Below, one piece after another: positions 1-17,130 of a stretch of DNA of 41,163 nt. Made by a program: the position numbers and the translations under genes. The first letter of the stretch is position 1, and every line of letters begins with the position of its first letter. Under the pieces are notes generated by a model, which did not search any database, was not told the DNA's origin, and saw nothing but the letters and a program-made list of their open reading frames with translations. This stretch comes from Verrucomicrobiota bacterium. Lineage in GTDB: Bacteria > Verrucomicrobiota > Verrucomicrobiia > Opitutales > Opitutaceae. Where the stretch lies: NCBI GenBank assembly GCA_947471035.1, contig CANIWJ010000023.1, positions 1 to 41,163 on the forward strand, given 5' to 3'.

Positions 1-1086
1 GACTGCCGCAGCCCCGCCGAGATCGACGCCGCGTTCAAACGCCTGCGCGATGAAATGGATGCCTCCATCCAGGCCCGCATGGCCTCGACCCGTAAGGAGG
101 TCTTGGAAAACTTCGATGAGGACGTGTCGCTCCGCCTCCGCGATTCCCTCACCGCCGCCGAGGAGCGTCTCGACCGCGTCTCCCGCGCGTTCTGGCGCAC
201 CACCCGGCACCTGCTCCGCGATCACGCCGCGTTCGACGAGTCGGCCCACTCCTTCCGCCTCGATCCGTCGCCCGTCCCCGGCCTGCAACCCGGCCCCTAC
301 CACCTCGTCGCCAAGCCCCCGCGCGACCGCAGCGACACCGACACCACGCCCACCGTCCCGCCTGATTTCATCTACCGCCTCACCCATCCGCTCGGCGATT
401 GGGTGCTCGCCACCGGTAAGGCCCTCGCCCCCGCGCCCGCCGCAGTCACTTTCGATGTGTCCGGCTACGGCGCGCGGCTTGCCGCCGTCGAGCCGCTGCG
501 AGGCAAGTCCGGTTGGCTAATCCTGCAAAAACTCGCCATCGAATCCCTCGGCACCGAGGAGCATTTGCTTTTCAGCGGTTTCGACGATGTCGGAGCCGCC
601 CTCGATCAAGAGACGCTCGAAAAACTGTTCCATTGCGACCTCGCCCCCGGCACCGCGCCCAAGCCCGCAGACCTCACACCCGCCGTGTCTGATCGCCTCA
701 CCCGCGAGGCCCGCCGCCACGCCGAGGCCACGCTCAGCTCGTCGCTGGAGCGCAACAACACCTTCTTCCGCGAGGAGCGCGACAAACTCGAAAAGTGGGC
801 CGATGACGCCCTCGCCGGGGCCGAGCGCTCCCTCTTCGACACTAAGGAACAAATCAAAGTGCTCACCCGCCAAGCCCGCACCGCCGCCACCTTGGATGAG
901 CAACAGGCCATCCAACAAAAAATCGCTGATCTGGAGAAAAAGAAGCGCCGCCAGCGTCAGCAGATTTTCGATGTAGAGGACGAGATCATCGGCCGTCGCG
1001 ACCGCATGATCGGCGACCTCGAAAAACGCCTCGCACAAAAAACCTCCGCCGCGCACCTCTTCATTCTCCGCTGGTCGGTCGTCTAA
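1..1086 (+). CDS. SNF2-type helicase, C-terminal part (partial at window edge)
   Basis: The reading frame is open from the first base, so the true start lies left of the window; the ATG at 55 is internal. The visible 361 residues hold no helicase motifs. They form a mixed alpha/beta region followed by a highly charged coiled coil (roughly 780-1050), rich in Lys/Arg/Glu, with the short run EKKKRRQRQQIFDVEDEI. From memory, this kind of tail ends large SNF2/HepA-like helicases of bacterial defence clusters. The stop is 7 bp before the PLD-like gene, so the two are co-transcribed. Its expected role would be ATP-driven translocation on DNA in the defence complex. The family call depends on the tail and the neighbours, because the ATPase domain is out of view. 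Confidence 0.6.
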   Translation, partial: DCRSPAEIDAAFKRLRDEMDASIQARMASTRKEVLENFDEDVSLRLRDSLTAAEERLDRVSRAFWRTTRHLLRDHAAFDESAHSFRLDPSPVPGLQPGPYHLVAKPPRDRSDTDTTPTVPPDFIYRLTHPLGDWVLATGKALAPAPAAVTFDVSGYGARLAAVEPLRGKSGWLILQKLAIESLGTEEHLLFSGFDDVGAALDQETLEKLFHCDLAPGTAPKPADLTPAVSDRLTREARRHAEATLSSSLERNNTFFREERDKLEKWADDALAGAERSLFDTKEQIKVLTRQARTAATLDEQQAIQQKIADLEKKKRRQRQQIFDVEDEIIGRRDRMIGDLEKRLAQKTSAAHLFILRWSVV

Positions 1087-1093
1087 ACGCCTC

Positions 1094-2497
1094 ATGCACC
1101 TCGTCCTCAGCTCACGTTCCGAGACCGGCGGTGGCTTCCGCAGCCCCCTCCGCGCCGCCCATAAGGCCGCGATGGCGGTCACCCGCCACGTTCAGGCCGC
1201 CGTCGCCTACGTTTCGACCGAAGCCAATCCCGTCCTCGCCGACTGCGACCGCGCTGGCATCCGTTGCGAGGTCTGGTCACGGCACGACGAGACACTGCCC
1301 ACCTCGCTCCGCGTCATGGACTGGGCCTGCCGCCGCATGAAGCTCAACGGCAACCTTACGTGGAAACTCGTTGCCCGCTATTTCCACCCCAAGGTCATCT
1401 GGTGGCACGGCTACGGCGTTTACATCGGCTCTGCCAACTTCACCGACGCCGCGTGGAACTCCAACTGCGAGGCCGGCGTGGTCATCCCCGAATCCGAGTT
1501 GGGCGAGGATCGCGCCACCCTCGCGTCGTTCTTCGCCGACCTCGACGCCGAGTCCGAACCGCTCACACCCCAGGTTTACGCCGAGGCGCAGGAGGCCTTT
1601 GCCGCCTACGAGGCCCAGCTCGAAGCTCTGCGGCGGGAAATGGCGGCAAAATTCGCCGAGACACCCACCGGCAAACAGCTCGCCAAAAAATCCCTTTCCG
1701 AGGCCAAACCCGCCAAGGGCGCGGCCAACGCCAAAACCGAGTTTCTCCGCGAGTGGAATACCACGCTCGACCGCCTTCGCTTTGTCCAAGCCCGCCTCAG
1801 CGACCCCGGCAATCGCCCCGCCTGGGTGCCGGCGGATGTCTCGCCGGGCATCCACACCGACCAATTTCTTCACGCCTTTTATTACACGCGGGTTCGTGAG
1901 GCGCAGTCCTACCCGGTCGAGAAGTATTTCGAGCAAAACCGCTCTGATCCTGTGGCGGCCCTTGCCCGCGAGATCGAGTGGTGGCGCAACACGCCCTCCG
2001 CTCCTAGCAGCGAGGACATGGTTTTTCGCGACTGGGCACCCGTTCACCGGGAACTCCTCACGGCCCAGCGTCTCGCCTCCATGACCGAGGCCGAGTTTGT
2101 CCGCGTAGCCCGCCGCACCCACTCGATCAACAACTTCGCCAAACGCCAGCGCCGCACCGACGTTCTCGACGAGGATGAGATCGCCGACACTCCCGACACC
2201 GAGCGCAAATGCGACCTCTTCTGCGAGCAGCTCTACTACCGGCGCAACCTCCTCAACTGGCAGACTCCACAGCTTCTCCACCATCTGCTCTTCGGCGGTT
2301 CCGTCGCCTCCGTCCCCGAGCGTTTGTTCGAGTGTGTTCACCGCCCGCACAAAATCGCCGGCCTAGACCTCAGCTCCCTCGGCGAGCTGATCGGCTGCGG
2401 TCTGCCCAACGACTACCCGCCCCGCAACGACCGCACCAACAAAGCCCTTCGCGCCCTCGGCTGGCCCATCCACGTCCGCAGTCCCAACCAGGAATAG
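1094..2497 (+). CDS. Phospholipase-D-like (HKD) family protein
   Basis: This 467-residue protein has one HKD-type motif near the N-terminus: H98-P-K100, then G112-S-A-N115-F-T, matching the HxK(x)nGSxNF pattern of the PLD superfamily. Only one such motif is visible, so an active site would need a homodimer, as in Nuc/BfiI-type nucleases. The rest is helical and charged with no motif I recognise. PLD-like proteins sit beside helicases in defence loci (DrmC in DISARM, for example), where they are thought to be nucleases or accessory factors. It begins 7 bp after the helicase stop and lies 43 bp before the methyltransferase. The ATG at 1094 has no Shine-Dalgarno sequence. A nuclease role is inferred. 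Confidence 0.75.
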   Translation: MHLVLSSRSETGGGFRSPLRAAHKAAMAVTRHVQAAVAYVSTEANPVLADCDRAGIRCEVWSRHDETLPTSLRVMDWACRRMKLNGNLTWKLVARYFHPKVIWWHGYGVYIGSANFTDAAWNSNCEAGVVIPESELGEDRATLASFFADLDAESEPLTPQVYAEAQEAFAAYEAQLEALRREMAAKFAETPTGKQLAKKSLSEAKPAKGAANAKTEFLREWNTTLDRLRFVQARLSDPGNRPAWVPADVSPGIHTDQFLHAFYYTRVREAQSYPVEKYFEQNRSDPVAALAREIEWWRNTPSAPSSEDMVFRDWAPVHRELLTAQRLASMTEAEFVRVARRTHSINNFAKRQRRTDVLDEDEIADTPDTERKCDLFCEQLYYRRNLLNWQTPQLLHHLLFGGSVASVPERLFECVHRPHKIAGLDLSSLGELIGCGLPNDYPPRNDRTNKALRALGWPIHVRSPNQE

Positions 2498-2540
2498 ACT
2501 TAGCTCGCCCCCTCCTTTTACATCTGTTTTTTTACGCCCA

Positions 2541-5500
2541 ATGCCTGTTTTCGACGATCTCAAAGCCAAGCTGGAAGAACTCTTCATGTTCGACCGCGCC
2601 GACCTCGATTTCGGCATGTATCGCATCCTCAATGCCAAACGCGTCGAGGTCACCCGCTTCCTTGAGACCGACCTGCTACCCTCCGCCCGCGCCGCCCTCG
2701 GTGCCGTCACCGCCGAAGACCAGGCCCGCCTGAAAACCGCCGTCGAGACCGCCCGCGAACAGGCCCGCAAGTTCGGCGCGCCCGATCCCGACGCCACCGA
2801 CGCTGTCCAGGAGGCCCAGGCCGCCTACGGGGCCGCCGCCGACACCACCGTCATCGAGGAGCAGATTTACTCCCACCTCCTCACCTTCTTCGCCCGCTAC
2901 TACCACGAAGGCGACTTCATCCCCCAGCGGCGCTACTCCGCCGCCGGCCGCGAGCGCTACATGATCCCCTACGACGGCGAAGAGGTGAAACTCGTCTGGG
3001 CCAACATGGAGCAGTATTACATCAAAAGCGGCGAATCCCTCACCGACTACGCTTTTACGTTTCCCGATCCCGCCGGCGGAGCCCGCCCCTTCCGCGTCGA
3101 GTTCCGCCTCGTCGCCGCCACCGAAGAGACCGCCAACAACAAATCCCAGACCGGCGAACGCCGCTTCGCCCTCGCCGATCTCGCCGCCCACCCGCCCGCC
3201 GTGTCGGCCGACGGCGCCAGGCTCACCCTCGCCTTCACCTACGTCGAACACCCCAAGGGCACCAAGCAGGCCGAGCTGCTCGACGCCGCCGAGGCCGCCC
3301 TTGCCCAGGCCGTTCTTCCCGCACCCTTCGCCGCCTCGCTCACCGCCGCCGATCCGACTTACACCGGCAAGAGCACGCGAACCGTGCTGCGCAAACACCT
3401 GGAGGTTTACGCCGCCAAAAACACCTACGATTATTTCATCCACAAAGACCTCGGTGGCTTCCTCCGCCGCGAGCTGGATTATTTTATCAAGACCGAGGTG
3501 CTCCGCCTCGACGACCTCCTCCCCGAAGATCCCGTCGCCGCCCGCCGCCAGCTCAAAAAAATTCACGCCCTCAAAGATCTCGCCGGCAAGATCATCGCCT
3601 TCCTGGAGCAGATCGAAAACTTCCAGAAAAAGCTCTGGTTAAAGAAAAAGTTCGTCACCGAGGTTCGCTACTGCCTCACCCTCGACCGCATCCCGGAAGC
3701 GTTTTACCCCGAGATCGCCGCCAACGCCGCCCAGCGCGAGGAGTGGAAGGCGTTGTATCATATTCAGGCTATCGAGGCCGACACCGCCGGCCAGCCCGGC
3801 TACCCCGGCGACAAAAAACCGCTCACCGTCGAGTTCCTAAAGGCCAACCCGTTTCTAATGGTGGACACCGGTCATTTTCCGTCGGAGTTCACCGCCCGCT
3901 TGGTCGCGGCGATTCCCAAGCTGGACGAATCGCTGGGTGGGGTTTGTTTTCATTCGGAAAACTTTCAGGCGCTGAATGCCGTTCAAGAGAAGCATCGCGG
4001 AGCTCTTCGGTTCAGCTACTTCGATCCTCCATACAACACTGGCAACGGTGACTTCATGTATCGCGACTTGATGCAGCATTCGAGCTGGCTCTCCATGATC
4101 GAGAATCGTCTCGATTTGCTACGGCCTCTATTGATGTCCGATGCCGCGGTATGCACCTCTATCGATGACAATGAAGTGGATCGGCTCAAGATGCTCATCC
4201 GCGATACGTTTGGTTCATCCACCAGTCTAGTGGATATTATTTGGCAAAAACGTTACGCGCCGGATGTTCGCACCGCGATTAGCGACGCCCATGAGTATAT
4301 CGTAACCGCGCTTACCAATATCGACGCCTTTGGAGCATCGAGAAACAAGCTGCCCTTGACCGAGTTTCAGACTAAACAATTTCGTAATCCGGACAATGAC
4401 CCACGCGGGCCATGGAAATCAGATAATTTCACAGCTCCTGGATCACGACCCAATCAAGAATATACGATTACATCACCGGCTGGCCGTGTGATTACCCCTC
4501 CGCCCGGACGCTGCTGGGGTGTGACTGAGCCTGTATTTAAGCAACTCATCGCGGACAAACGCATGTATTACGGTGTAGATGGCAACGGACTACCCGGCGT
4601 AAAACGTTTCCTTAGCGAGATGGACGGCATGGTTCCCTGGACATGGTGGGCACACGAAGATGTCGGACACTCACAAGACGGCCTCAAAGAAAGCGTCGGC
4701 TTTTTTGGCCGTGCGAACGCATTTACTACAGCCAAGCCCGTTACTTTAATCGAACGGTTGGCTCGTATCGTAACGAAGCCCGATTCGCTCGTCCTCGATT
4801 TCTTTGCTGGCTCCGGCACCACCGGCCATGCGGTCATCAACCTCAACCGCGAAGACAAGGGTCAGCGTCGTTATATCCTCGTCGAAATGGGCGAGTATTT
4901 TGAGACCGTGCTCGTGCCGCGCCTCAAAAAAGTCGTTTACAGCACCGAGTGGAAAGACGGCAAACCCACCCGCCGCGACAGCGGTATTTCGCACGCCTTC
5001 AAAATCGTAAAACTGGAGAGCTACGAAGACACGCTGAACAACCTCCGCCTGCCCGCCCGCACCGCCGAGCAGACCCTCGCGCTCGACCATGCCACGCCCG
5101 CCGCACGCGCCGACTACCTGCTCCGCTACAGCCTCGAACTCGAAACCAAGGGCAGCCCCTCGCTCCTCGACCTCCAAAAATTCTCCGCCCCGTGGAGCTA
5201 CCAGCTCGCCATCCACCGCCAGGGCGAGACGCGCCCGGTCACGGTGGACTTGGTGGAAACCTTTAATTGGCTCCTCGGCTTGCGCGTAGAGCAGCAAGAC
5301 GCCCCCGTCACCCTCACCGCCGATTTCGAGACCGACGCCGCCGGCCGTGCCGTGGTCAAAAAAGCCAGCCTCCACAAAGCCCCTACAGGTTGGACATTTC
5401 AAGTCGTCACGGGCCGCGACCGCGCGGGCCGCCTGCACCTCGTCCTCTGGCGCTCGCTCACCGGCGACGCAACCCAGGACAACGCCGTGCTGGATGCGTT

Positions 5501-5681
5501 TTTCCAGAAACAGGGCTACAATGCCCGCGACACGGAGTTCGACACGATCTACGTGAACGGCGACAACAACCTCGCCAACCTCGCCCTCGCCGCCGACACC
5601 CCCGATGCGCCCAGCGCCTACAAAGTAAAACTCATCGAAACCGAGTTCCACCGCCTCATGTGGGACGTCCGGGACGTGTGA
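2541..5681 (+). CDS. Large beta-class DNA methyltransferase (Type III Mod-like)
   Basis: This 1046-residue protein would transfer a methyl group from SAM to an amino group of adenine or cytosine. Catalytic motif IV is D495-P-P-Y-N499 and the SAM-binding motif I is LVLDFFAGSGTTG at 750-762. The order IV then I is that of beta-class enzymes such as Type III Mod, with the target-recognition domain between them. About 490 residues precede motif IV, much more than in ordinary Mod proteins, and about 285 follow motif I. Between about 3960 and 4790 the DNA turns clearly less GC-rich and less C-ending in codons than its flanks; that stretch matches the recognition domain and suggests it was swapped. 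It lies between the PLD-like gene and the ATPase gene (13 bp apart). The Res-like helicase-nuclease at 7617 is its likely restriction partner. Confidence 0.9.
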   Translation: MPVFDDLKAKLEELFMFDRADLDFGMYRILNAKRVEVTRFLETDLLPSARAALGAVTAEDQARLKTAVETAREQARKFGAPDPDATDAVQEAQAAYGAAADTTVIEEQIYSHLLTFFARYYHEGDFIPQRRYSAAGRERYMIPYDGEEVKLVWANMEQYYIKSGESLTDYAFTFPDPAGGARPFRVEFRLVAATEETANNKSQTGERRFALADLAAHPPAVSADGARLTLAFTYVEHPKGTKQAELLDAAEAALAQAVLPAPFAASLTAADPTYTGKSTRTVLRKHLEVYAAKNTYDYFIHKDLGGFLRRELDYFIKTEVLRLDDLLPEDPVAARRQLKKIHALKDLAGKIIAFLEQIENFQKKLWLKKKFVTEVRYCLTLDRIPEAFYPEIAANAAQREEWKALYHIQAIEADTAGQPGYPGDKKPLTVEFLKANPFLMVDTGHFPSEFTARLVAAIPKLDESLGGVCFHSENFQALNAVQEKHRGALRFSYFDPPYNTGNGDFMYRDLMQHSSWLSMIENRLDLLRPLLMSDAAVCTSIDDNEVDRLKMLIRDTFGSSTSLVDIIWQKRYAPDVRTAISDAHEYIVTALTNIDAFGASRNKLPLTEFQTKQFRNPDNDPRGPWKSDNFTAPGSRPNQEYTITSPAGRVITPPPGRCWGVTEPVFKQLIADKRMYYGVDGNGLPGVKRFLSEMDGMVPWTWWAHEDVGHSQDGLKESVGFFGRANAFTTAKPVTLIERLARIVTKPDSLVLDFFAGSGTTGHAVINLNREDKGQRRYILVEMGEYFETVLVPRLKKVVYSTEWKDGKPTRRDSGISHAFKIVKLESYEDTLNNLRLPARTAEQTLALDHATPAARADYLLRYSLELETKGSPSLLDLQKFSAPWSYQLAIHRQGETRPVTVDLVETFNWLLGLRVEQQDAPVTLTADFETDAAGRAVVKKASLHKAPTGWTFQVVTGRDRAGRLHLVLWRSLTGDATQDNAVLDAFFQKQGYNARDTEFDTIYVNGDNNLANLALAADTPDAPSAYKVKLIETEFHRLMWDVRDV

Positions 5682-5694
5682 GCCTCTGACGGCC

Positions 5695-6864
5695 ATGTCT
5701 AAACTCGATTACATCTCCATCCACGGCTTCAAGAGCATCAAGGCTCTTGAGAAGCTCCCGCTCGGTCCGATCAACGTCGTCATCGGCGCCAACGGCAGTG
5801 GCAAATCCAACTTCATCGGCGCCTTCGCCTTTCTTCATGCTCTGCGAGAGGGCAATCTGGCGTCCTACGTCGGCAAGGCGGGCGGGGCGAATAATATACT
5901 TCACTTTGGCAGCAAGGTTTCGCCGCAGCTAAAATTCCATGTGTCTTTTGATGAAGAGGTTAATCAGTATAATATAACTCTGGCCTCAACCATCGAAAAT
6001 AAGCTCTTTATTGAATCGGAGAATACATATTATTGGGGCGACAAGCGCCATTATAGACCCTATATAGCGGGCCTCGCCCGTCTGCCAACCGGTGAAGCGG
6101 GCATCAGCGGGAGCGGGCTAACCAAAACCCCTTTGCATGTGCAGGGAAAATTGGCCACTTGGCGCATTTACCATTTTCACGACACCAGCAACAACTCGGC
6201 GCTAAAGGCCACGGCCAAGCTCAACGACAACTGGGTTCTGAGGCCCACCGGGGAAAACCTTCCGGCATTTTTGTATCTCTTAAAACAGAGACACCCCGAA
6301 TCTTATCGGCTGATCGTCCAAGCCGTCGCGAAGATCGCTCCGTTTTTTGCCGACTTCATTTTGGAGCCTTCGCAGCTCGACCCGACCTCAATCCGCCTCG
6401 AATGGAAACACGTCGGCACGGACCGGTATTTCGACGTGTCGGCGCTGTCGGACGGCACCCTTCGTTTCATCGCGCTCGCCACGCTGTTTCTTCAGCCCAA
6501 GGAGCGGCGCCCCTCGGTGATATTGGTCGATGAGCCCGAACTCGGCTTACACCCCAAGGCCATCACCTTGCTCGCTTCGATGGTCGAGGCGGTGTCGGCC
6601 CACACGCAGGTCATCATCACCACCCAGTCCCCCCTGTTGCTCGATCATTTCGACCCGGAAAGCGTTATCGTCGCGGATCGAGTGGACGAGGCCACGACGT
6701 TTACCCGGCTCAAGCGCGATGGCCTCGCGGGCTGGCTCAAGACCTACAGCCTCGGCCAGCTCTGGGAGAAAAACGAGATCGGCGGTCGGCCCGGCAGCAG
6801 CCCGATGAACGCCCAGCCCACCGGAGCCAACGAGTATCCCGCGGTTTTCCCCGACGACGTTTAA
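5695..6864 (+). CDS. ABC/AAA-type ATPase (AAA_21/OLD-like)
   Basis: This 389-residue ATPase starts with the RecF/OLD-like pattern ISIHGFKSI, followed by Walker A GANGSGKSN (31-39), a signature-like LSDGTLRF region (around 257) and Walker B ILVDEPELGLHP with D279-E280, then a switch-like ITTQSP. This is the ABC-ATPase layout of defence proteins such as OLD, GajA and AriA. Residues of about 75-130, encoded around 5930-6080, are relatively AT-rich and may be a variable insert within the ATPase fold. It is followed after 9 bp by a DUF4276 gene, a common pairing in which the ATPase controls a TOPRIM-type effector. Its position inside a restriction-modification cluster suggests a second, guard-like layer of immunity (inference). 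Confidence 0.88.
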   Translation: MSKLDYISIHGFKSIKALEKLPLGPINVVIGANGSGKSNFIGAFAFLHALREGNLASYVGKAGGANNILHFGSKVSPQLKFHVSFDEEVNQYNITLASTIENKLFIESENTYYWGDKRHYRPYIAGLARLPTGEAGISGSGLTKTPLHVQGKLATWRIYHFHDTSNNSALKATAKLNDNWVLRPTGENLPAFLYLLKQRHPESYRLIVQAVAKIAPFFADFILEPSQLDPTSIRLEWKHVGTDRYFDVSALSDGTLRFIALATLFLQPKERRPSVILVDEPELGLHPKAITLLASMVEAVSAHTQVIITTQSPLLLDHFDPESVIVADRVDEATTFTRLKRDGLAGWLKTYSLGQLWEKNEIGGRPGSSPMNAQPTGANEYPAVFPDDV

Positions 6865-6873
6865 GCCGCCGAC

Positions 6874-7617
6874 ATGTCTCGTTTATTTATTCAAGTCGAG
6901 GGGCCGACGGAAGAGGACTTCGTCAACGAGGTGCTGCGACGGCATTTGATCGACCATCATGGGTATCACGCCGTTGATGCGCGCATCGTGGGCAACTCTC
7001 GTCTGCGCGAGAAGCGCGGCGGCATTCGCGGCTGGTCCGTGGTGAAAAAGGAGATCGTCGAGCGTCTTCAGTATGATCGCGGAGTGTTTATCACCATGCT
7101 GGTCGATTATTACGCCCTCCCCAAAGGAGGGCCGGAAGACGACGGATGGCCGGGGCGCTCGGTGCCGGCCAACCTGCCCGTGGCCCAAAAAGCATCCAGC
7201 GTGCAGCGCGGCCTAGAGGCGGAAATCGTGTCCGCGCTGCCCAATCCAAACGACCATCGCCGCTTCATTCCCTTCATCGTGATGCACGAATTTGAGGCGC
7301 TGCTTTTCAGCGATCCCGCCGCGATGGCCAGAGGCTTCAATCATGCGGACGCCGAGACGGACTTTGCGGCAATCGCCGACCTGTTTTCCACGCCGGAGGA
7401 AATCAACGACTCGCCGCTTACCGCACCGTCCAAGCGTATCATCAAAGTTTTCAGTGACCGGGGCTACGACCATTACGAGAAACCGCTCCTTGGTAATCTC
7501 GCCGCTTTGGAAATCACGCTCCCTGTCATTAAAGCCAGGTGCCCGCTGTTCGCGGCGTGGCTCGGGAAATTAGAGCGCTTGGGCGACGCTGCCGCCGCGC
7601 GTCGCGCCACCCCGTAA
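6874..7617 (+). CDS. DUF4276 family protein (TOPRIM-like, partner of the ATPase)
   Basis: This 247-residue protein opens with RLFIQVEGPTEEDFV, the conserved acidic start of DUF4276 (E9 and E13-E14). A second acidic patch, TMLVDYYALP (about 75-84), and a conserved MHEFEALLFSDP segment (about 144-155) follow. The arrangement of an early Glu and a later Asp resembles TOPRIM metal-binding folds, so a nuclease or nucleic-acid-processing role is plausible, by analogy with AriB (DUF4435) in PARIS and the TOPRIM part of OLD. It follows the ATPase gene by 9 bp, and its TAA stop overlaps the ATG of the next gene (TAATG at 7615-7619), which implies translational coupling to the Res-like subunit. Confidence 0.82.
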   Translation: MSRLFIQVEGPTEEDFVNEVLRRHLIDHHGYHAVDARIVGNSRLREKRGGIRGWSVVKKEIVERLQYDRGVFITMLVDYYALPKGGPEDDGWPGRSVPANLPVAQKASSVQRGLEAEIVSALPNPNDHRRFIPFIVMHEFEALLFSDPAAMARGFNHADAETDFAAIADLFSTPEEINDSPLTAPSKRIIKVFSDRGYDHYEKPLLGNLAALEITLPVIKARCPLFAAWLGKLERLGDAAAARRATP

Positions 7618-10600
7618 TGATGCATCTCACGAAAAAACTCGTCCTCCAGCGCTGGTGCTTCGGCCTACTTGAAATCTCGGACTTCAAGGCCTTGGCCGAC
7701 CGGCTGCGCCCCTTGCCCGAAGGCGAGACCGCCGAAGGGCAGACCTACTTCGTCAACGATCTCCTCGGCCTCAAAATCGGCCGCGCCCGCCTGCCCGACG
7801 ACCAGCTCCGCGACTACGACGCCAACATTGTCCAGCTCACCCGCCGCTACAACGAGCACAGGGGAGAAAAACTCGTCTGGAAATACTACCAGTGGCTCGC
7901 CCTTCTTTTCACCGAGTTCTACCTCGACCGCTTTTTCCGTGACCGAGCCGCGCTTCTCGCCGATCTCAATCAGGAACTCGGCCGGCTCAATCAGCAGCTC
8001 GATCAACTCGGCGCGTCCAAAGAAAAGCTCCCGCCCTTCGTGGCCGAAGACCTCACCAAGCTCGCTTTTCTCCAAGCAACCGGCAGCGGCAAGACGCTCC
8101 AGATGCACGCCAACTTGCTTCAGTGGCTTTTCTGGCGCGAAAAACACGCGCCAGACCAGCCGCTGGATCGCATCCTTCTCCTCACCCCCAATGAGGGCTT
8201 GAGCAACCAACACCTCAAGGATTTCGAGGCCTGCGGCGGTCTGTTCAACGCCGAGCTTTTTAATAAGGACACGCCCACCCAACGCCGTTCCGGCGTGGCG
8301 GTGGACATCATCGACATCCACAAACTCGGCGAGACCTCTAAAGAGAAGACCGTCGCGGTCAGTTCGTTCGAGGGTAACAACCTCGTTTTGGTGGACGAAG
8401 GCCACCGTGGCGCGTCCGGAGTGGACTGGATGGAACGCCGCGCCGCTCTCTGCAAAAACGGGTTCTCTTTCGAGTATTCCGCGACCTTCGTGCAGGCGGT
8501 CAACGCCGCCACCGGGGCCAAGCGCAAGGAGCTGGAGGCACTCTACGGGCGCTGCATCCTGTTCGATTATGGCTACCGCTGGTTTTACGGCGACGGCTTC
8601 GGTAAGGATTACCGCATCCTCAATCTCGACCTCGGGCTCAACGCCACCTTAAGCGAACAGGAACAGCGCGAGCGCTACCTCACCGGCTGCGTGCTGAGCT
8701 ATTACCAACAGTTGCGCCTGTTTCACGACAAGACCACCGAACTCAAGCCCTACCACGTCGCGCAACCGCTCCTCGTTTTCGTCGGCTCAAAAGTCACCAA
8801 AGACTTCAACGCCCAAGAAGCCTCTGACATCGTGGAAGCGATTCGTTTCCTGACGCGCTTTACTCATCGCGATGGCGGCGCCGTGGCACGCATCAATGGT
8901 ATCCTCGACGGCTCTATGACGCTCCATGACGAGAAGGGGCGGAGCCTGTTTCAAGACGCGTTCGACTACCTCCGCACCCTCGGCAAGGACGCGGCGGCGC
9001 TTTACCGGGATTGCTTGGAGTTGGTTTTCCACAGCAAAGGCCCGGCGATCCTGCACGTCGCGCTTTACAAAGGCGTCGGCGAAATCGGCCTTCAACTCGG
9101 CGACAGCAAACCCTTCGGCGTGGTGCGGGTCGGCGACACGCCCAAGCTCAAGAAACAGTTTGAGGAGAAGAATCAGGAGGAGCTGAAGGCCAATGCCACG
9201 GCCATCGTCCCGGCGGTCATCGAGCAGGAACTGGCACACCCGCTATTCCCCACGCTTACCGAGCGCGAGTTCGATACGTCGAACCCGCTGCGCGTGCTCT
9301 TGGGCTCAAAAATGTTCACGGAGGGCTGGTCGTGCTACCGCGTCAGCACGATGGGGTTTCTCAACATCGCCAAATCCGAGGGCTCCCAAGCCATCCAGCT
9401 TTTCGGCCGTGGCGTCCGCCTCAAAGGTTTCGCCGGCAAACTCAAACGGAGCACGCACACCGATGTGCCCGCCAACCAGCGTCCAAAACACATTCAATAC
9501 CTCGAACGCCTGAACATCTTCGGCCTGCGCGCCGGGTTCATGGCGGAGTTCAAAAAGTTCCTTGAAGACGAAGGCGCATCGCCCGACCCGGATGCCACCC
9601 GCGTTACCTTGCCGGTGCTGGCAAGCCTGCCGACCGCTCGGAAACTCAAGACTCTCGATCTTCCGCCCGGCATTAATTTTAAGCGCCAAGGCCCAATCCC
9701 GACGCTATCCGCCACCCCGCACTCCACTTTCAAAAACCGTCTGGTCGAGGTGGATTGGTATCCCAAGGCCCAGTCCATGGCGGCAGCGGGTGCGGCATTC
9801 AATGCTGCTCCGGAACACCGCAACACCGGCAAACTCAGTGCCGTCCCTCATCTGGCGTTTTTGGATTGGGATGCGATTTACCGGGAGCTGCTCGCCTACA
9901 AGCAGCTCCACAACTGGAACAATCTAAACATCCCGCAATCGGCGCTAGAATCGCTTTTGCAAGACGCCACCTGGTATGTGCTCTACATCCCATCTGCTGA
10001 TCTCGCCTTCGACCGGTTCGCGGCCGGCCAACGCTGGCAGGAAATCGCGACCGTTCTCCTGAAGCGTTATCTTGATCGTTTCTACACAGCCGAAAAAGCC
10101 GCGTGGGAACACGGACGCCTGATCTACCGCGACATCAATCTCGATGACGTTAAGGATCGCGCCTACACCTTCGAAATCGACCCGACCGAGGACGTGTTGC
10201 TGGAGGAGTTGGCCGAACTTAAAAAGGCTATCGAAACCGGAAAGCTCGCATCGCTGGAGGCGCTCATCACCACGCCCCATCGCTTCAGCCGTTCCGAACC
10301 GATCATGTGGGGAGGGCACCTCTACCAGCCGCTTCTGCATCTCAAGAAAGGCACCTATCTGAAATACAGTGCGCTGGCACTTCAAGAGAGTGAAAAACGA
10401 TTCGTCAACGACCTCATCGCGTTGCTCAAGAAGAAGCCTGCATTCTTGGCGGGCAAAGAGCTTTACCTCTTACGCAACGAATCTCGTTCACGCGGCTTCG
10501 GCTTTTTCGAGGACGCTGGATTTTTTCCGGACTTCCTCGTCTGGCTTGTGGACGATTCTCAACAAACGGTCTGGTTCGTCGATCCCCACGGCATGGCCCG

Positions 10601-10853
10601 TGAGCGGCCCTCGTCGCTCAAACTCAGACTCGCGCAGGAGATTCGCCAAAAGCATGAAGCACGGTTGGCCGTGGCCAACATCCACCTCGGCGCAGCCATC
10701 GTCACCGAAACCCCCTATCTACAGACGATGGTGTCCGGTGCCGGCTGGTCGCCGAAGGACTGCCGCGACCGCAACCTCTACTTCATGGATTCCCATACCT
10801 ACGTCAGCGATCTGCTGGCGGATATGTCGGCGAGCATTGTAATCAGCGCTTAA
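7617..10853 (+). CDS. Type III Res-like DEAD/DEAH helicase-nuclease
   Basis: This 1078-residue protein has superfamily 2 helicase motifs: Walker A ATGSGKT (154-160), motif II D260-E-G-H and motif VI QLFGRGVR (594-601). Near the C-terminus, F-P971-D972-F followed by V-D989-P-H-G fits a PD-(D/E)xK nuclease fold of Type III Res subunits, but the usual Lys is His991. With the methyltransferase it would form the cleavage arm of a restriction-like system. I chose the ATG at 7617, which overlaps the preceding stop; a second ATG follows directly at 7620. The open frame back to 7539 overlaps the DUF4276 gene and is not needed. Codon use from about 8770 on is more mixed than in the first third. Confidence 0.88.
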   Translation: MMHLTKKLVLQRWCFGLLEISDFKALADRLRPLPEGETAEGQTYFVNDLLGLKIGRARLPDDQLRDYDANIVQLTRRYNEHRGEKLVWKYYQWLALLFTEFYLDRFFRDRAALLADLNQELGRLNQQLDQLGASKEKLPPFVAEDLTKLAFLQATGSGKTLQMHANLLQWLFWREKHAPDQPLDRILLLTPNEGLSNQHLKDFEACGGLFNAELFNKDTPTQRRSGVAVDIIDIHKLGETSKEKTVAVSSFEGNNLVLVDEGHRGASGVDWMERRAALCKNGFSFEYSATFVQAVNAATGAKRKELEALYGRCILFDYGYRWFYGDGFGKDYRILNLDLGLNATLSEQEQRERYLTGCVLSYYQQLRLFHDKTTELKPYHVAQPLLVFVGSKVTKDFNAQEASDIVEAIRFLTRFTHRDGGAVARINGILDGSMTLHDEKGRSLFQDAFDYLRTLGKDAAALYRDCLELVFHSKGPAILHVALYKGVGEIGLQLGDSKPFGVVRVGDTPKLKKQFEEKNQEELKANATAIVPAVIEQELAHPLFPTLTEREFDTSNPLRVLLGSKMFTEGWSCYRVSTMGFLNIAKSEGSQAIQLFGRGVRLKGFAGKLKRSTHTDVPANQRPKHIQYLERLNIFGLRAGFMAEFKKFLEDEGASPDPDATRVTLPVLASLPTARKLKTLDLPPGINFKRQGPIPTLSATPHSTFKNRLVEVDWYPKAQSMAAAGAAFNAAPEHRNTGKLSAVPHLAFLDWDAIYRELLAYKQLHNWNNLNIPQSALESLLQDATWYVLYIPSADLAFDRFAAGQRWQEIATVLLKRYLDRFYTAEKAAWEHGRLIYRDINLDDVKDRAYTFEIDPTEDVLLEELAELKKAIETGKLASLEALITTPHRFSRSEPIMWGGHLYQPLLHLKKGTYLKYSALALQESEKRFVNDLIALLKKKPAFLAGKELYLLRNESRSRGFGFFEDAGFFPDFLVWLVDDSQQTVWFVDPHGMARERPSSLKLRLAQEIRQKHEARLAVANIHLGAAIVTETPYLQTMVSGAGWSPKDCRDRNLYFMDSHTYVSDLLADMSASIVISA

Positions 10854-11270: not shown

Positions 11271-11312
11271 TATTTCAGACGGAAAATTAGCCATAATTTT
11301 CCGTCTGAAATA
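11271..11312. repeat. Perfect 19-bp inverted repeat with 4-bp spacer
   Basis: The arms are TATTTCAGACGGAAAATTA (11271-11289) and its exact reverse complement (11294-11312), separated by GCCA. The surrounding 11.2-11.35 kb is AT-rich for this window and contains no gene. It lies about 75 bp from the iterons. It could be a replication-origin structure, a bidirectional transcription stop or a recombination site. No U-tract follows on either side, so a standard rho-independent terminator is less likely. Confidence 0.85.
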
Positions 11313-11387: not shown

Positions 11388-11476
11388 CACGTGCAAGAGC
11401 TACACCGATCACGTGTCGGAACTACACCGGTTTACGTGTCGGAGCTACACCAAGGGCCACGTGTCGGAGCTACACC
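11388..11476 (+). repeat. Four iterons, probable plasmid replication origin
   Basis: Four near-identical 19-bp direct repeats of the form CACGTGTCGGAGCTACACC start at 11388, 11410, 11433 and 11458, with spacings of 22, 23 and 25 bp, about two helical turns. The first has CAA in place of TCG, the second has one A for G, and the third begins with T. This fits iterons bound by a RepA initiator, and a RepA gene of the iteron-binding type lies 2.8 kb away (14305-15204). AT-rich DNA and a large inverted repeat lie just to the left. A short CCTATAG repeat occurs twice just to the right (around 11491 and 11508). Confidence 0.8.
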
Positions 11477-11596
11477 ATGACAGAGGTGTACCTATAGTTC
11501 AGTTAAACCTATAGAAGAAACATATAGGGGGACGGCCCGCCCCCAGCGGCCGCCTTCGTAGTGGCTACTGGGAGAAGGAGAGTGGGGCTGCTGCAC

Positions 11597-13525
11597 TCAG
11601 GCGCGGCGAGGTTTGGTTCGGGCAGCGATAGCGCCCGGGGGCGTCTGGTCGGCTTGGCTTGGTGAAATTGATGGCGCGCTCCGCGCGTCTGGCGTAAGCG
11701 TCGCGTTGGCGGCGCGGGTGGTCTCGATGGCCTCGGCGCGTAGCAGGTCGTTCCAATCCTTCAGTTCCCAGTCGGCGAGCAAAGGTACGGCTCGTCGTAG
11801 GCGAATGAGTAAGTCCGCGCCCAACTCGCGAAAACGCGTACGCACGGACTGCCAACCTCGTTCCCCGGCCGGGTCGCGGTCCAAGGCGACGGTTATGGGT
11901 ACAGGGTGATTATGCGCCAGAGCCAGCGCTGCCTCGGGCACCGCGCTGCCGCCGACACTCACGACGCGGGCCCGCTGGCTGCGCTGATAGTAGGACAGAG
12001 CGTCGATTGGCGACTCGACGAACACCAACTCGTCGGCGTCGATGATGGCGGGGCCAATAGCGAAGAAGGCCGATAGCTTATCGCCCAGCGCGCGCTTGGG
12101 TCCGTCGCGGTCGTCGAGCGCGCGCAAGGTGGCACCGCGTGTTTCGCCTTGGGCATCGATGTGGCGAAAGACACACCAAGGTCTAGGCGAGTGGTCACGC
12201 TGGCGCTGAAAACTGCCGTGCAACAGGCCGGCTTGGATTTGTGTGTCCACGACTGCCGGGGAGAGGCCGCGCACAGTCACAAGGTAATCGCGTGCCATCG
12301 CAGTGGCTTGCGCGTCGGGGCGTGCGAAGTAGGTCCAGAGATCGGCGAAGCTTTTCTTTGGAGCAAGGGCGGCGCAGTGATCGGCAGCGATGCGCACGGC
12401 GGCAGCCACCTGGGCCTGCGACCATTGGCCGGCGAGCCAACCGACGGCATCCGCGAACCCACAAGCCATCAGGTGCATTACGAGATCAATAGCCTTGCCA
12501 CCGCCTTTGCCTGCTTGGTGGTCGAACCACTTTACGCCATTCACGGTGATGGCGTGCTCGCCGGTGCGCCAAACGAGCGCCGTGCCTTCACGTTCGCCGT
12601 CGCCCCAGCCGAGGCGGGCCAGCACGTCGGGTAGTGGGATGTCTCGCACTAGGTCGGTCATGCTGCGTAACGAGGTGCGCGTGTTGGCGAGATCAGCGGC
12701 CAGTTTTTGGTTGGTGCGCTGGTGCGCGCGAGCCGTGCGGTGAAGCTCGCTCGCGGCGGCGGCCGCAATGCGGGCGCTGGCCGCCTCTTGTGAGATTGCG
12801 GTGATACGTTCGTTGGCCGAGGCGGAAATTCGCGCAGCATAAGCGGACGACGATTCGAGGAAGCTTTTGGACGGAGCCGTAAAGAGTGGGGGAGGTGTGC
12901 GCGTCTCTTGCGCTACGGACGCGGTGACGTGGCCGTAGTAGGAGCGTAGCGTGCGGTGCTCCGCCTGGCTGCCGCGCACACCACGCGAGAGTCCTAGCGG
13001 CGTGAGCGCGGTGGCGTAGGTGTCCTGTTGGCGAACGAGCGTTGCGGGATTGAAGAGCTTTTTCGCTGACAACCAGATCGAGCCATCGCGTGCGGGCACT
13101 AGCGGCACAACATAGGCTGCAATGTGCGGCGTTTTTTCGTCTAGATGGAGAGTCGCGCAAAATAGATTTTCGCCGAAATCTTTTCGCAGCCAATCGATGC
13201 TACGACGGGTCCATTCCTCGATGAGTTGATCGCGCTGCGCGCTCTCGCTGGCGTCTTCGAAAAACTCGGGCGAAGTGCCGAGGAAAATTTCCTGCAAGAG
13301 CACCGCGTCGCGCTTTCGTTTTGCGTCGCGCGTAACGCTTTCCCATGCGGCTACAAATTCGTTCGGGGTGGGGATGCGTTCAGCAAAACCGTAGAGCTGG
13401 CGATTGCTGGGCGTGCGATGCGTATCGGCGTTAGGCGTCGGGCGCGTGCGAGCATTATGTGCGGCGCTGCCACGTAGCGCGGCCAGCGACTTAAGTTTGG
13501 TGGTGCGATAAATTGCGTAGGGCAT
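11597..13525 (-). CDS. MobV-like relaxase fused to a TOPRIM primase domain
   Basis: This 642-residue protein has two parts. The N-terminal ~200 residues match plasmid mobilization (Mob_Pre/MobV) relaxases, with motif III H127-L-D-E-K-T-P-H134 followed by IAAYVVPL. A helical linker of about 230-300 follows. The C-terminal half looks like a primase: a GWGDGEREGTALVWR...WFDHQAGKGGGKAIDL section typical of DUF3991/CHC2-like regions, then a TOPRIM domain with E504 in VESPIDAL and D549-R-D551. The protein would nick oriT for conjugal mobilization and prime replication of the transferred strand. The third His often found in motif III is Ala here. The oriT-like hairpins lie immediately upstream. No Shine-Dalgarno is seen before the ATG at 13525. 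Confidence 0.82.
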   Translation of the reverse strand: MPYAIYRTTKLKSLAALRGSAAHNARTRPTPNADTHRTPSNRQLYGFAERIPTPNEFVAAWESVTRDAKRKRDAVLLQEIFLGTSPEFFEDASESAQRDQLIEEWTRRSIDWLRKDFGENLFCATLHLDEKTPHIAAYVVPLVPARDGSIWLSAKKLFNPATLVRQQDTYATALTPLGLSRGVRGSQAEHRTLRSYYGHVTASVAQETRTPPPLFTAPSKSFLESSSAYAARISASANERITAISQEAASARIAAAAASELHRTARAHQRTNQKLAADLANTRTSLRSMTDLVRDIPLPDVLARLGWGDGEREGTALVWRTGEHAITVNGVKWFDHQAGKGGGKAIDLVMHLMACGFADAVGWLAGQWSQAQVAAAVRIAADHCAALAPKKSFADLWTYFARPDAQATAMARDYLVTVRGLSPAVVDTQIQAGLLHGSFQRQRDHSPRPWCVFRHIDAQGETRGATLRALDDRDGPKRALGDKLSAFFAIGPAIIDADELVFVESPIDALSYYQRSQRARVVSVGGSAVPEAALALAHNHPVPITVALDRDPAGERGWQSVRTRFRELGADLLIRLRRAVPLLADWELKDWNDLLRAEAIETTRAANATLTPDARSAPSISPSQADQTPPGAIAARTKPRRA

Positions 13526-13629
13526 GACAGAGCACGGGCCCGCCGCCTTGCTGGCGCGGGCGAAGGTTTTGAAAATGCGGCGCGTAGTGGATTACGCGCC
13601 GCCCGAGAAGACGCGCGGAGCGCGCCAAG

Positions 13630-13740
13630 CCGTCGTCGCACGACGGCCGGGGTGCAGGGGCGTTGCCCTTGCCTCACGCTCGGCTCGGAGAGCCGAGATA
13701 CCACCTCGCCAGCGGCGGGGTGGTATAGTGAGTATACCAC
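13630..13740. other. Candidate oriT: four consecutive stem-loops upstream of the relaxase
   Basis: In the 230-bp gene-free gap between the relaxase start and the next gene there are four inverted repeats: CCGTCGT/ACGACGG (13630-13646), GCAGGGGC/GCCCTTGC with one wobble pair (13654-13672), CTCGGCTC/GAGCCGAG (13679-13697) and GTGGTATA/TATACCAC (13720-13740). Loops are 3, 3, 3 and 5 bases. Relaxase target sites commonly lie just upstream of the relaxase gene and carry such repeats. The last repeat, being AT-rich at its centre, could instead be a promoter operator. Confidence 0.5.
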
Positions 13741-13758
13741 TACGTGGTCACTGAATTC

Positions 13759-14049
13759 CTACTTGGAAGAAGAAGGCTTGTCGGGTGGCGGCTCGATGAG
13801 CGGCTTCGTGTCGGTCAAAGTACGTTCGAGCCGCTGCTGGCGCGATTTAGAAGCGTAAGGCGCATCCCACCAAGTCTGGCCCTCGGCCTTTAGTTTGTGC
13901 ATCGCGAATTGAATGGCCTGTTCGGCGAGTTGTTCGCCGAATTCACGAAAAAAACGCTCCGCGTGCAGCATTCCCTCAGGGGACAAAAGCATGCGAGGGC
14001 TCATGCGCTCAGCGGCCACCGAATCGAGATATTCTGCGATGGTAATCAT
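13759..14049 (-). CDS. Small hypothetical plasmid protein
   Basis: This 96-residue protein is largely helical (EYLDSVAAERMSPRMLLS, then HAERFFREFGEQLAEQAIQFAMHKLK), with a basic patch SKSRQQRLERTL and a Pro/Ser-rich tail. I recognise no family. Its ATG overlaps the stop of the upstream 76-residue gene by four bases (ATGA at 14046-14049), so the two are translationally coupled. Its place between the RepA and relaxase genes, with the oriT-like region just downstream, would suit a mobilization accessory or copy-number protein, but nothing in the sequence proves that. Confidence 0.65.
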   Translation of the reverse strand: MITIAEYLDSVAAERMSPRMLLSPEGMLHAERFFREFGEQLAEQAIQFAMHKLKAEGQTWWDAPYASKSRQQRLERTLTDTKPLIEPPPDKPSSSK

Positions 14050-14276
14050 GGCTTGGTGGTGATGGCTGTGGCCGGAGTTGGGACGGTAGTTTTTGACATC
14101 AATTTTGCGGTAGCGGGCCGGAACTGCAGAACGGCCTTTCTGAGCGCGCGAAGCGCCCGTGAGTGGGCGTCGTTTTCGAGTAGTTCGGCGGCGTTTTTTA
14201 GGACGTCGACTGAGAAGCTCGTGCCAGGGTAATAATCGCTGGCAGCTAAGTTTATGATTTCAGGTATTGTTTTCAT
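14046..14276 (-). CDS. Small hypothetical plasmid protein
   Basis: This 76-residue protein begins MKTIPEIINLAASDYYPG, has a helical basic middle (NDAHSRALRALRKAVLQF) and ends in a Thr/Pro-rich tail. I recognise no family. It starts 28 bp after the RepA stop and overlaps the next gene by four bases, so the repA-76aa-96aa order looks like one transcription unit on the - strand. The ATG at 14276 has no clear Shine-Dalgarno sequence. Confidence 0.6.
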   Translation of the reverse strand: MKTIPEIINLAASDYYPGTSFSVDVLKNAAELLENDAHSRALRALRKAVLQFRPATAKLMSKTTVPTPATAITTKP

Positions 14277-14304
14277 GTTTTGATTCCGACTGTGCCGGAA
14301 ATGT

Positions 14305-15204
14305 TTAGCGACACCTGCGACCTCGCATGGCCACGGGCAGTTTTTCGGGAGGAAAAAAGGTTACGCCGCCCCGGAAGAAGCGGAGTTTAAGCTCGGGCCA
14401 TACATGCTGGACGCGGCGCAGCGCGCGGCGCATGTGACGCGAAAATTCCTTGGGCTTGGCGAAGTCAGCGCCGAACTGAGGCTGGAGTGCTAGCCAACCC
14501 AATGTAAGCGGTTGCCGAAGGCTGCGGAGCCTAAAGGAAAGCCAACAAAACATGTCCATCGCTAATGGCGCGTCGCGCAAAGCGCGCAGCGCCCCAAGGT
14601 CGAGGGGTATTGCGTGAGAAATGAGATCTCGAAAAACGACCTCGTTTAGCGTGGCGAAACCAAGCGCCCGATGGCCATTTTCACTTTTCCAAAGCAAGAA
14701 CTCCGAGGCCAATGACAGGTTTCGACCGGCGAGTGTTTCGTGGTCTCGGAATACGTAGCGTATCGAGGCAAGGAGCAGCCGATCCAATTGTTCACGAACC
14801 GCGCGATGTCTCCGCCCATCGGTGGGAAAGCCCAAGGTGCGCAGAAACCGAGTAAGTGACGGTCCGAGGCTTACGTGGGGCGATTGTTGACGCACCGACT
14901 CCGTGCAAATGTAGAGCAAGAGCCAACGCGACGTTGCTCCGTAGGGAAATCCGGCGCAGACGAGCCGTCCGTGGTCGGCGACAAAACCTGGCTGAATGGT
15001 AAGTGTAGCATCGCCGTTTTTTCTGCTCCATACAGCTGTATCGCTAGGTTCGGTGAGCGGAAAATTAGTGACAAGAAAGCAGCGTGCAAGGAAGCCCACT
15101 TCACCACGTTGCTCGGGTGTCTCCGTCCAGACCTTTTCGGCCGCGGAGAGGCGGCGCAGCTCGGTGCTGGAATAAATGCATTCCAAGGCTTTAAGTTCGC
15201 TCAT
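14305..15204 (-). CDS. repA: RepA-type plasmid replication initiator
   Basis: This 299-residue protein matches the plasmid-encoded RepA family (PF04796 type) by recognisable segments: GFPYGATSRWLLLYICTESVR, then SLGPSLTRFLRTLGFPTDG, then a basic REQLDRLLLASIRYVF region, and late residues DMFCWLSFRLRSL. In that family the protein binds iterons at the origin and starts plasmid replication. The four iterons at 11388-11476 are the obvious target. The start overlaps the end of the HTH gene by 14 bp, so it is probably translationally coupled to it. The C-terminus is very basic (MRGRRCR). This gene is the best evidence that the 11-17 kb region derives from a plasmid. Confidence 0.85.
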   Translation of the reverse strand: MSELKALECIYSSTELRRLSAAEKVWTETPEQRGEVGFLARCFLVTNFPLTEPSDTAVWSRKNGDATLTIQPGFVADHGRLVCAGFPYGATSRWLLLYICTESVRQQSPHVSLGPSLTRFLRTLGFPTDGRRHRAVREQLDRLLLASIRYVFRDHETLAGRNLSLASEFLLWKSENGHRALGFATLNEVVFRDLISHAIPLDLGALRALRDAPLAMDMFCWLSFRLRSLRQPLTLGWLALQPQFGADFAKPKEFSRHMRRALRRVQHVWPELKLRFFRGGVTFFPPEKLPVAMRGRRCR

Positions 15205-15424
15205 CTTCGCAGGCGCTTTGCGCGCGGATGTGTTGGAGCAAACTCTCCGCAGAAATGAGCCTGATGCCCCGCATCGTGCCGGGCCGGCGGATCACGTGGC
15301 TTTTCACCGGAGGTCGGTGCTCGTTTCGCGAGGTTGGCAGCACGAGTTCGCAGAGAGTACTCCTGCTGAGTCCGGTAACCGGGCAACGTGCGCCCGGTCG
15401 AGGCAAACGGAGAAACTGAGGCAT
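15191..15424 (-). CDS. Small helix-turn-helix (AlpA/excisionase-like) protein
   Basis: With the ATG at 15424 the product is 77 residues and starts at the conserved core MPQFLRLPRPGARCPVTGLSRSTL, followed by VKSHVIRRPGTMRGIRLI and a C-terminal helix. The pattern of a LPxPGxRCPVTGLSRSxL helix-turn-helix and a basic wing is one I associate with small DNA-binding proteins next to RepA-like genes in Verrucomicrobia. An in-frame ATG at 15484 would add 20 residues without obvious conservation, and the frame is open to 15595. It overlaps repA by 14 bp, so it probably regulates or assists repA. An inverted repeat at 15624-15643 upstream is a candidate operator. Confidence 0.7.
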   Translation of the reverse strand: MPQFLRLPRPGARCPVTGLSRSTLCELVLPTSRNEHRPPVKSHVIRRPGTMRGIRLISAESLLQHIRAQSACEDERT

Positions 15425-15623
15425 TTGCGGAGAACGAGAAAAGTCGTTCGTCGTGTCCGTTGAGTGGTTGGGATGTGTCGGCATGTGGAGCGATGTCGCC
15501 GACAGGTTACCTCGTCCGTGCGCCGAAATCTTCTTCTCAAGATTCACCGCGAATCCGTTAGCGTTTCTGCCGAACGAGACTCGAGGCCTACACAACGACG
15601 CTCACACTTACATGAATTCGGAC

Positions 15624-15643
15624 ATCCACGAACACGCGTGGAT
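15624..15643. promoter_or_regulatory. Inverted repeat upstream of the HTH-repA pair
   Basis: ATCCACG (15624-15630) and CGTGGAT (15637-15643) form a 7-bp inverted repeat with a 6-bp spacer, about 200 bp upstream of the HTH start. Its size and position suit an operator for the HTH protein or RepA autoregulation. No clear -35/-10 pair was identified, so the role is inferred. Confidence 0.3.
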
Positions 15644-15738
15644 TTCAACGCCTGTGTTGTCCGTTACCGTTGTCTGTTTGATAAAAACCCAGAAAAATAA
15701 AAACCCTAAGTCGCTCGTGGAATTATGGTTTTATAAAA

Positions 15739-15788
15739 TGGTGAACGCCACAGGACTCGAACCTGTAATTACGTAGCCAGCGCTACAC
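15739..15788 (-). tRNA. Orphan tRNA 3' fragment (T-arm, acceptor strand, CCA)
   Basis: Read on the - strand, ACAGG-TTCGAGT-CCTGT (15750-15766) is a perfect T-arm, followed by GGCGTTC, a discriminator A and an encoded CCA. Just 5' of it, GTAGC and GCTAC could form a variable-arm-like hairpin. No matching 5' acceptor strand (GAACGCC) or D-arm was found nearby, so this is not a complete tRNA. It lies 65 bp beyond the 3' end of the integrase gene, which makes it a likely attachment-site relic of an integrated element. Confidence 0.55.
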
Positions 15789-15853
15789 CTTTTCTTGGGC
15801 AGCTGAGTTTTGTCAGAAAGCCAATGATGTCACTAACCACAGATTCCGACGCC

Positions 15854-17020: not shown

Positions 17021-17130
17021 GTTCAAATTTAGTTCTACCAAAAGTTCTACCTGACGTGGATGTTCACCGAAGTCTAGGTTTATCTTTTACAGAGGTGTTT
17101 GGATATCCCTGAACACCGAGAAACGTCTTG

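Follow-up and report, generated by a model that had tools for sequence, protein, structure and literature searches.

Do the six neighbouring genes that open this contig (positions 1–10853, all on the + strand) form one machine, or do they represent a known operon that carries other genes as cargo? The window, by which we mean the whole stretch of DNA analysed, is the entire contig C23 (41163 bp, one of 232 contigs in the assembly) and, because the contig begins within gene 1, this gene is truncated at its 5' end. The original prediction of six same-strand genes, separated by gaps of 7, 43, 13 and 9 bp and including one start/stop overlap, is confirmed by the ORF coordinates, the overlap being a TAATG that joins the DUF4276 stop codon (TAA, 7615–7617) to the Res start codon (ATG, 7617–7619). 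Our reading of these genes is that they very probably make up an Eco86II-type Type III restriction-modification (RM) operon, composed of an SNF2/DrmD-family ATPase, Mod and Res, with PLD cargo in slot 1 (between helicase and Mod) and a HEC-01 pair in slot 2 (between Mod and Res; Table 1). It is based on homology, gene order and modularity, from which we infer the activities of the proteins, a sensor/effector split and any anti-phage effect. As far as sequence comparison can tell, a known core and a known pair are met here in a new combination with an orphan PLD-fold protein, a putative nuclease; since this looks like a known three-gene restriction system plus two independent mobile defence modules, the cluster is an unusual mix of mostly known parts and not a new single machine.

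Table 1. Features of the window (strand and remarks where given)
Feature	Coordinates	Strand	Role and evidence
Gene 1: SNF2/DrmD-family helicase-like ATPase, C-terminal 361 aa	1..1086, 5' open	+	core; alignment
Gene 2: orphan PLD-fold protein, 467 aa	1094..2497	+	cargo slot 1; PLDc_2 9.7e-7, HKD-type motif
Gene 3: Type III Mod, 1046 aa, beta-class methyltransferase	2541..5681	+	core; MTase_III 4.4e-186 (PADLOC)
Gene 4: ABC-type ATPase HEC-01A, 389 aa	5695..6864	+	cargo slot 2; HEC-01A 1.6e-131
Gene 5: DUF4276 protein HEC-01B, 247 aa	6874..7617	+	cargo slot 2; HEC-01B 9.2e-63
Gene 6: Type III Res, 1078 aa, SF2 helicase + C-terminal PD-(D/E)xK-like nuclease	7617..10853	+	core; REase_III 4.8e-172 (PADLOC)
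Mob_Pre protein with C-terminal TOPRIM domain	within 11597–17041, right of operon
RepA_C replication protein	14305–15204
Tyrosine integrase	15854–17041

The Pfam families found in the cluster are N6_N4_Mtase, AAA_21, DUF4276, ResIII and PLDc_2, and none of the six proteins has an NCBIfam match above its cut-off among the matches listed. That the operon contains Type III RM parts, as predicted, is borne out by the MTase_III and REase_III matches of Mod and Res. Mod has DPPY at residue 495, before FAGSG (AdoMet motif I) at residue 755, which agrees with its predicted assignment to the beta class. A Mod profile finds the Mod subunits of EcoP15I (1.7e-46) and Mbo45V, mainly through profile positions 465–817 of 1048, so that by this comparison the first 460 or so residues are extra. 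Res has the motifs ATGSGKT (Walker A), DEGH, QLFGRG and PDF..VDPHG; its ORF can be extended upstream to 7539, but alignment with an Aeromonas relative begins only near residue 32 of this longest form. The nuclease motif (10527–10592) reads PD..VDPHG, with H replacing the catalytic K of DPKG. Among the 67 Res ORFs in which the motif was found, this position is K in 52 and H in 15, window included (13 further loci, several with cut genes, gave no Res motif match), which makes H a natural variant that recurs in the Res motif. The H variant pairs with E in 12 of the 15 and with D in three, of which the window is one, and K pairs with D in all 52; in these sequences H/E and K/D are an apparent paired change.

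Gene 1 was predicted to encode a helicase. None of the helicase motifs searched for is present in its 361 amino acids, as these motifs would fall beyond the contig end, but the fragment aligns with the C-terminus of full-length SNF2 proteins encoded beside Mod relatives (45% identity in Aeromonas, 46% in Blastomonas, 49% in Hymenobacter, 35% in Conchiformibius, 43% on an E. coli plasmid). The fragment itself gives a weak tail match to the PADLOC DrmD model (0.0056) and three of three full-length SNF2 relatives match that model at 1.5e-190 to 2.6e-200. Support for the prediction, as a DrmD-like helicase, comes from the full-length relatives and not from motifs in the fragment. With a full-length relative as query, the missing part of the helicase was not found on the other contigs of the assembly.

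The arrangement of these three genes is that of the m4C Type III systems described by Murray et al. (2021, PMC8259958). Two of these systems, Eco86II (E. coli NCTC86; recognition sequence GAGCC) and BspHIV, are reported there to carry the gene of a helicase-like ATPase directly before mod, on its 5' side; such a gene lies close to these systems in more than 500 genomes, methylation did not need the ATPase, and the partly purified Eco86II enzyme, in which it was undetected, retained partial cutting (PMC8259958). The NCTC86 chromosome (NZ_LR217818.1) carries SNF2-Mod-Res, a trio that we identify with Eco86II from the strain and the gene order, and the window proteins are 40% (SNF2, over 360 columns), 33% (Mod, over 1113 columns) and 36% (Res, over 1152 columns) identical to those of NCTC86. 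A close relative of this trio was matched in 186 of 5426 E. coli genomes, with at least 80% of it covered in 145. By analogy with Eco86II, the window Mod would methylate one strand of an asymmetric site, the mark being likely m4C, with m6A as the alternative; Mod-Res would then cut unmodified DNA in an ATP-dependent manner, as expected from the same work (PMC8259958). The extra SNF2-type ATPase would be an accessory. In the literature searched, no description of cargo in operons of the Eco86II type was found.

This core recurs widely. At least 579 Mod relatives were confirmed on genome contigs, and the best 80 of these were taken for locus comparison. Within this set of the best 80 of at least 579 loci, SNF2 lies upstream of Mod in 55 (51 of the 67 loci that offer 3.5 kb or more on that side; it was not found in the other 16 despite the room), Res lies downstream in 73, and all three genes are present in 50, which come from 14 named phyla plus two loci without a phylum name. 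Mod relatives also occur in 720 of 72,556 plasmid records. Nine plasmid Mod loci have SNF2 directly upstream (two), upstream with intervening genes (two), downstream (one), replaced in that position by another helicase with 17% identity in the alignment (one), or not seen (three, all haloarchaeal). In the phylum of the window, a Mod relative is found at E 1e-60 in 18 of 288 genomes, the window's being the only one from its family, and SNF2 lies upstream in seven of the nine Mod loci fetched. Two unusual arrangements were met: the order Mod-Res-SNF2, with the helicase at the end, on a Conchiformibius plasmid (L011, 10001–19349), and two Mod-like genes on the same strand followed by one Res (L072, 3762–11677).

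Is the cargo an obligate part of this system? The 50 full-core loci (from the best 80 of at least 579) have both slots empty in 23 cases, slot 2 only filled in 14, slot 1 only in six and both in seven, a simple picker having counted as cargo any plus-strand ORF of 100 aa or more. Only in the window was a PLD protein seen in slot 1, and the complete six-gene order was met once, with no second locus among the loci compared. The recurrence in other genomes that the original prediction had looked for is thus seen for parts of the order, SNF2-Mod-Res in 50 and Mod-ATPase-DUF4276-Res in 13 of the best 80 of at least 579 loci, which is more than chance would give, and not for the whole. The claim that the six genes are one unnamed functional unit is not supported: helicase-Mod-Res is of the Eco86II kind, ATPase-DUF4276 is HEC-01AB, and in all the other loci examined the PLD gene occurs without the core. 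Tight spacing had been put forward as an argument for one unit, and it is equally expected of cargo inside an operon. Independent neighbours in other genomes had been set beforehand as the finding that would refute a unit, and the neighbours elsewhere show independence for three of the six genes (PLD, ATPase and DUF4276).

The pair in slot 2 consists of genes 4 and 5. The gene 4 ATPase matches AAA_21 (2e-32, Pfam) and has the motifs GANGSGKS, LSDG and VILVDEPE; it also matches AriA (1.1e-31, PADLOC), in line with its prediction as an OLD/PARIS-like ATPase. Gene 5 has DUF4276 (2.3e-43) as its sole Pfam match at 0.1 and five HEC-01B models as its sole PADLOC matches at 0.01, with EGPTE at residue 9 and VDYY at residue 77. 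Foldseek, run with its confidently predicted structure (pLDDT 91) against the PDB and viral libraries, gave no match at E 0.001, and phmmer gave none among PDB sequences. The DUF4276 protein is a possible TOPRIM-like effector, an assignment that is weak and comes from the EGPTE motif and a profile match of 21 columns at 42% probability; a literature search for DUF4276 by name found no paper. HEC stands in PADLOC for Hma-embedded candidate (PMC12988326), and the preprint that defines HEC-01 may already partly describe the modularity seen here.

Mod and Res flank the ATPase and DUF4276 genes in 13 of the best 80 of at least 579 loci (one of them, L046, is a near-copy of L045), and SNF2 is upstream in 10 of the 13. 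Aeromonas media pE31A has SNF2-Mod-ATPase-DUF4276-Res, the window order minus the PLD gene, and in L056 a single contig encodes SNF2, Mod, the pair and Res. On plasmids, DUF4276 is present in 12 records, and the ATPase is directly upstream in eight of the eight loci opened. Five of these eight (L106, L109, L110, L111, L113) are apart from RM genes, two are by RM genes (L108, with a shorter Mod on one side and a helicase on the other; L112, between Mod and an Mrr protein), and in L107 the pair is between SNF2 and a Mod fragment. In the phylum of the window, DUF4276 is found at E 0.001 in 27 of 194 genomes, own included; for the 14 strongest places, fetched with the window and genome G269 set aside, the ATPase is upstream in 12 of the 12 with room, Mod or Res hits are seen in none of the 14, and an SNF2 hit is nearby in two (L190, L196). 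In G269 (L144, 5782–7585) the pair lies between SNF2 and Mod and not between Mod and Res. In L106 (4883–9060) the pair stands alone on an Acinetobacter plasmid, small and mobilizable, that also has VapBC and a predicted tet(39).

The pair probably acts as a separate second defence layer. In OLD/PARIS work, an ABC ATPase controls a small nuclease (PMC10568477, PMC12839542), and by analogy with AriA and AriB the ABC ATPase of the pair may sense an infection signal and release the DUF4276 effector; a PARIS-like trigger for the HEC-01 pair is what we infer from this analogy. A more specific possibility is that the pair acts as a guard of the RM core, triggered by phage inhibition of Mod-Res, in which case its position in the operon would be functional while the module remained exchangeable. 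PARIS senses Ocr and is described as backing up BREX (PMC12839542), the pair lies beside Mod in the further RM loci L107, L108 and L112, and pair and core show the residual co-variation described below, all of which is consistent with such a guard; the occurrence of the pair without neighbouring RM genes, and the fact that DUF4276 matches no AriB model, count against it, and we consider it rather unlikely. PARIS membership was rejected, AriB being unmatched by gene 5.

How closely pair and core travel together was measured in two ways. A Mod tree of 84 rows, from which L043 and L068 had been dropped, requires 12 changes in the presence of the pair, 11 of them forced by well-supported branches; 500 label shuffles gave a mean of 13.9 changes, and 36 of the 500 were equally low. 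Across 14 loci, without L046, distances correlate more closely within blocks (0.79 for Mod-Res, 0.68 for ATPase-DUF4276) than between them (Mod-ATPase 0.37, p 0.007; Mod-DUF4276 0.38, p 0.003; Res-ATPase 0.37, p 0.012). These weak, nonzero correlations between blocks, together with the 36 shuffles as low, suggest that the pair is partly tied to the core; from these sequence distances, core and pair appear as two tight blocks, loosely tied, short of full independence. This bears on the idea of one six-gene unit, in which helicase and PLD would process DNA marked by Mod-Res and ATPase/DUF4276 would be an obligate effector in the same complex. The co-variation between pair and core, which is significant although weak, the 7–43 bp gaps, the one stop/start overlap and the single strand would all fit such a complex, and yet 23 of the 50 full-core loci (from the best 80 of at least 579) have empty slots, both the pair and the PLD gene occur without the core, and the full order was met once. 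We hold this complex to be highly improbable and a single six-gene machine in general to be unlikely; an indivisible unit is rejected by core without cargo, pair without core, PLD without core and at least 11 presence changes on the Mod tree. The Eco86II-type operon with cargo in two slots remains our preferred reading.

The slot 1 cargo, gene 2, has a single HKD-type motif (HPK..GSAN at residue 98). Its PADLOC matches are local only (ZacB 8.8e-9, DrmC 6.3e-6), its structural model is of pLDDT 76 and pTM 0.50, and phmmer against PDB sequences gave one chance match only (0.88). Relatives, about 36% identical, occur in five of 72,556 plasmid records, and no SNF2, Mod or Res hit above 40 bits is present in these five loci. 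A further 21 viral contigs (L114–L134) encode full-length or near full-length relatives, about 31–37% identical; they were found with an alignment query, a single-sequence query having given two stretches and no relative. These 21 contigs, several of which are short, gave no hits to the core genes bar a 14-bit Mod hit on the opposite strand. In the phylum of the window (387 genomes), the only full PLD match is the window's own, with weak partial matches in three, and in its class (141 genomes) there is, besides the own PLD, one weak partial match that contains stops. The PLD protein would be a separate one-gene nuclease, and its plasmid- and virus-borne family is a candidate for the list of defence genes.

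A different origin for genes 1 to 3 would be a DISARM, ARMADA or BREX derivative, in which SNF2 and methylase are the DISARM class 1/ARMADA module and the PLD protein is DrmC. The strong DrmD matches of the helicase relatives and the local DrmC match of gene 2 point in this direction; that match spans only about 40 residues, however, Type III models fit gene 3 best, and a Res is present. DrmB (DUF1998), which the original prediction had noted as absent, is indeed, like DrmA, matched by none of the six proteins among the matches listed. DISARM/ARMADA membership was rejected on this last ground, and we regard a derivative of these systems as extremely improbable.

The two slots hold other genes in other loci. 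Of 68 slot proteins listed, to which the window contributes three, 20 were scanned with Pfam. These 20 include Fic, DUF1016/YhcG (two), GmrSD, AlbA_2, RhuM, sigma-70 and Abi_2 proteins, a Peptidase_M78 protein with HTH, an SF1 helicase, a PolyVal kinase, one PHP protein plus a second below the cut-off, and an AAA_15 protein beside a sub-threshold PIN protein; five are without a clear family. PADLOC, run on 14 of the 20, matched a defence model at 1e-5 in 10 and gave no match at 0.001 in four. DUF4435 had no hit in 113 genomes of the class. L143 (6081–7963) has, between SNF2 and Mod, a 380-aa ATPase with only distant resemblance to HEC-01A (55 bits) together with a 246-aa protein, perhaps another ATPase–effector pair in slot 1. 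In conclusion, two operon positions of a published Type III group, whose extra helicase is unexplained, gather defence-type genes in several phyla (best 80 of at least 579 loci), which offers a positional rule: to find defence candidates, look in the two slots. One may go further and propose that operons of the Eco86II type serve as platforms with two slots and a mechanistic coupling between cargo and core, in which Mod-Res is guarded by the pair, and possibly by the PLD protein as well, against phages that block or evade restriction, and that the orphan PLD family is a new one-gene defence spread via plasmids and phages. This extended proposal is speculative and we judge it decidedly unlikely as a whole; the guard question becomes testable with cloned E. 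coli loci.

To the right of the operon lie, on the minus strand, the mobility and replication genes listed in Table 1 and, beyond the integrase, genes of the LacZ, adenylosuccinate lyase and phosphofructokinase type, which suggests an integrated plasmid-like element next to housekeeping genes. A tRNA search of the window found none. Between the operon and the Mob/Rep genes there are four iteron-like copies of about 19 nt with a spacing of 22–25 nt (11389–11477). A perfect inverted repeat with 19-nt arms and a 4-nt loop (11271–11312), about 420 bp past the Res stop, is perhaps a terminator or regulatory site; promoter and terminator scans were at or below shuffle level (1 versus a mean of 3.1; 11 versus 11.8).

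The cluster can finally be set against the systems that it resembles. As in DISARM class 1, the full-length helicase relatives match DrmD and the PLD motif region matches DrmC, but DrmA and DrmB were not seen in the window genes, which encode a Type III Mod and Res instead. As in PARIS (AriA/AriB), an ABC/OLD-like ATPase that matches AriA is beside a small putative nuclease, whereas the window ATPase fits HEC-01A far better and gene 5 is a DUF4276 protein without an AriB match. The gene 2 model resembles SauUSI and Nuc (Foldseek matches to 7clg, 1.8e-6, and 1byr, 3.0e-5); unlike these, the window PLD protein has a conserved, mostly helical C-terminal region and no helicase fusion. Both proteins of the pair match HEC-01A and HEC-01B best and their genes are adjacent, 9 bp apart, in the same order as in relatives, but while HEC-01 is an Hma-embedded candidate, the window pair is flanked by a Type III Mod and Res. 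The cluster resembles Eco86II and BspHIV in gene order, with mod and res preceded by the gene of a helicase-like ATPase, and in its beta-class Mod with DPPY; it differs from them in that its Res reads DPHG and not DPKG, and in having a PLD gene between helicase and Mod and an ATPase/DUF4276 pair between Mod and Res.
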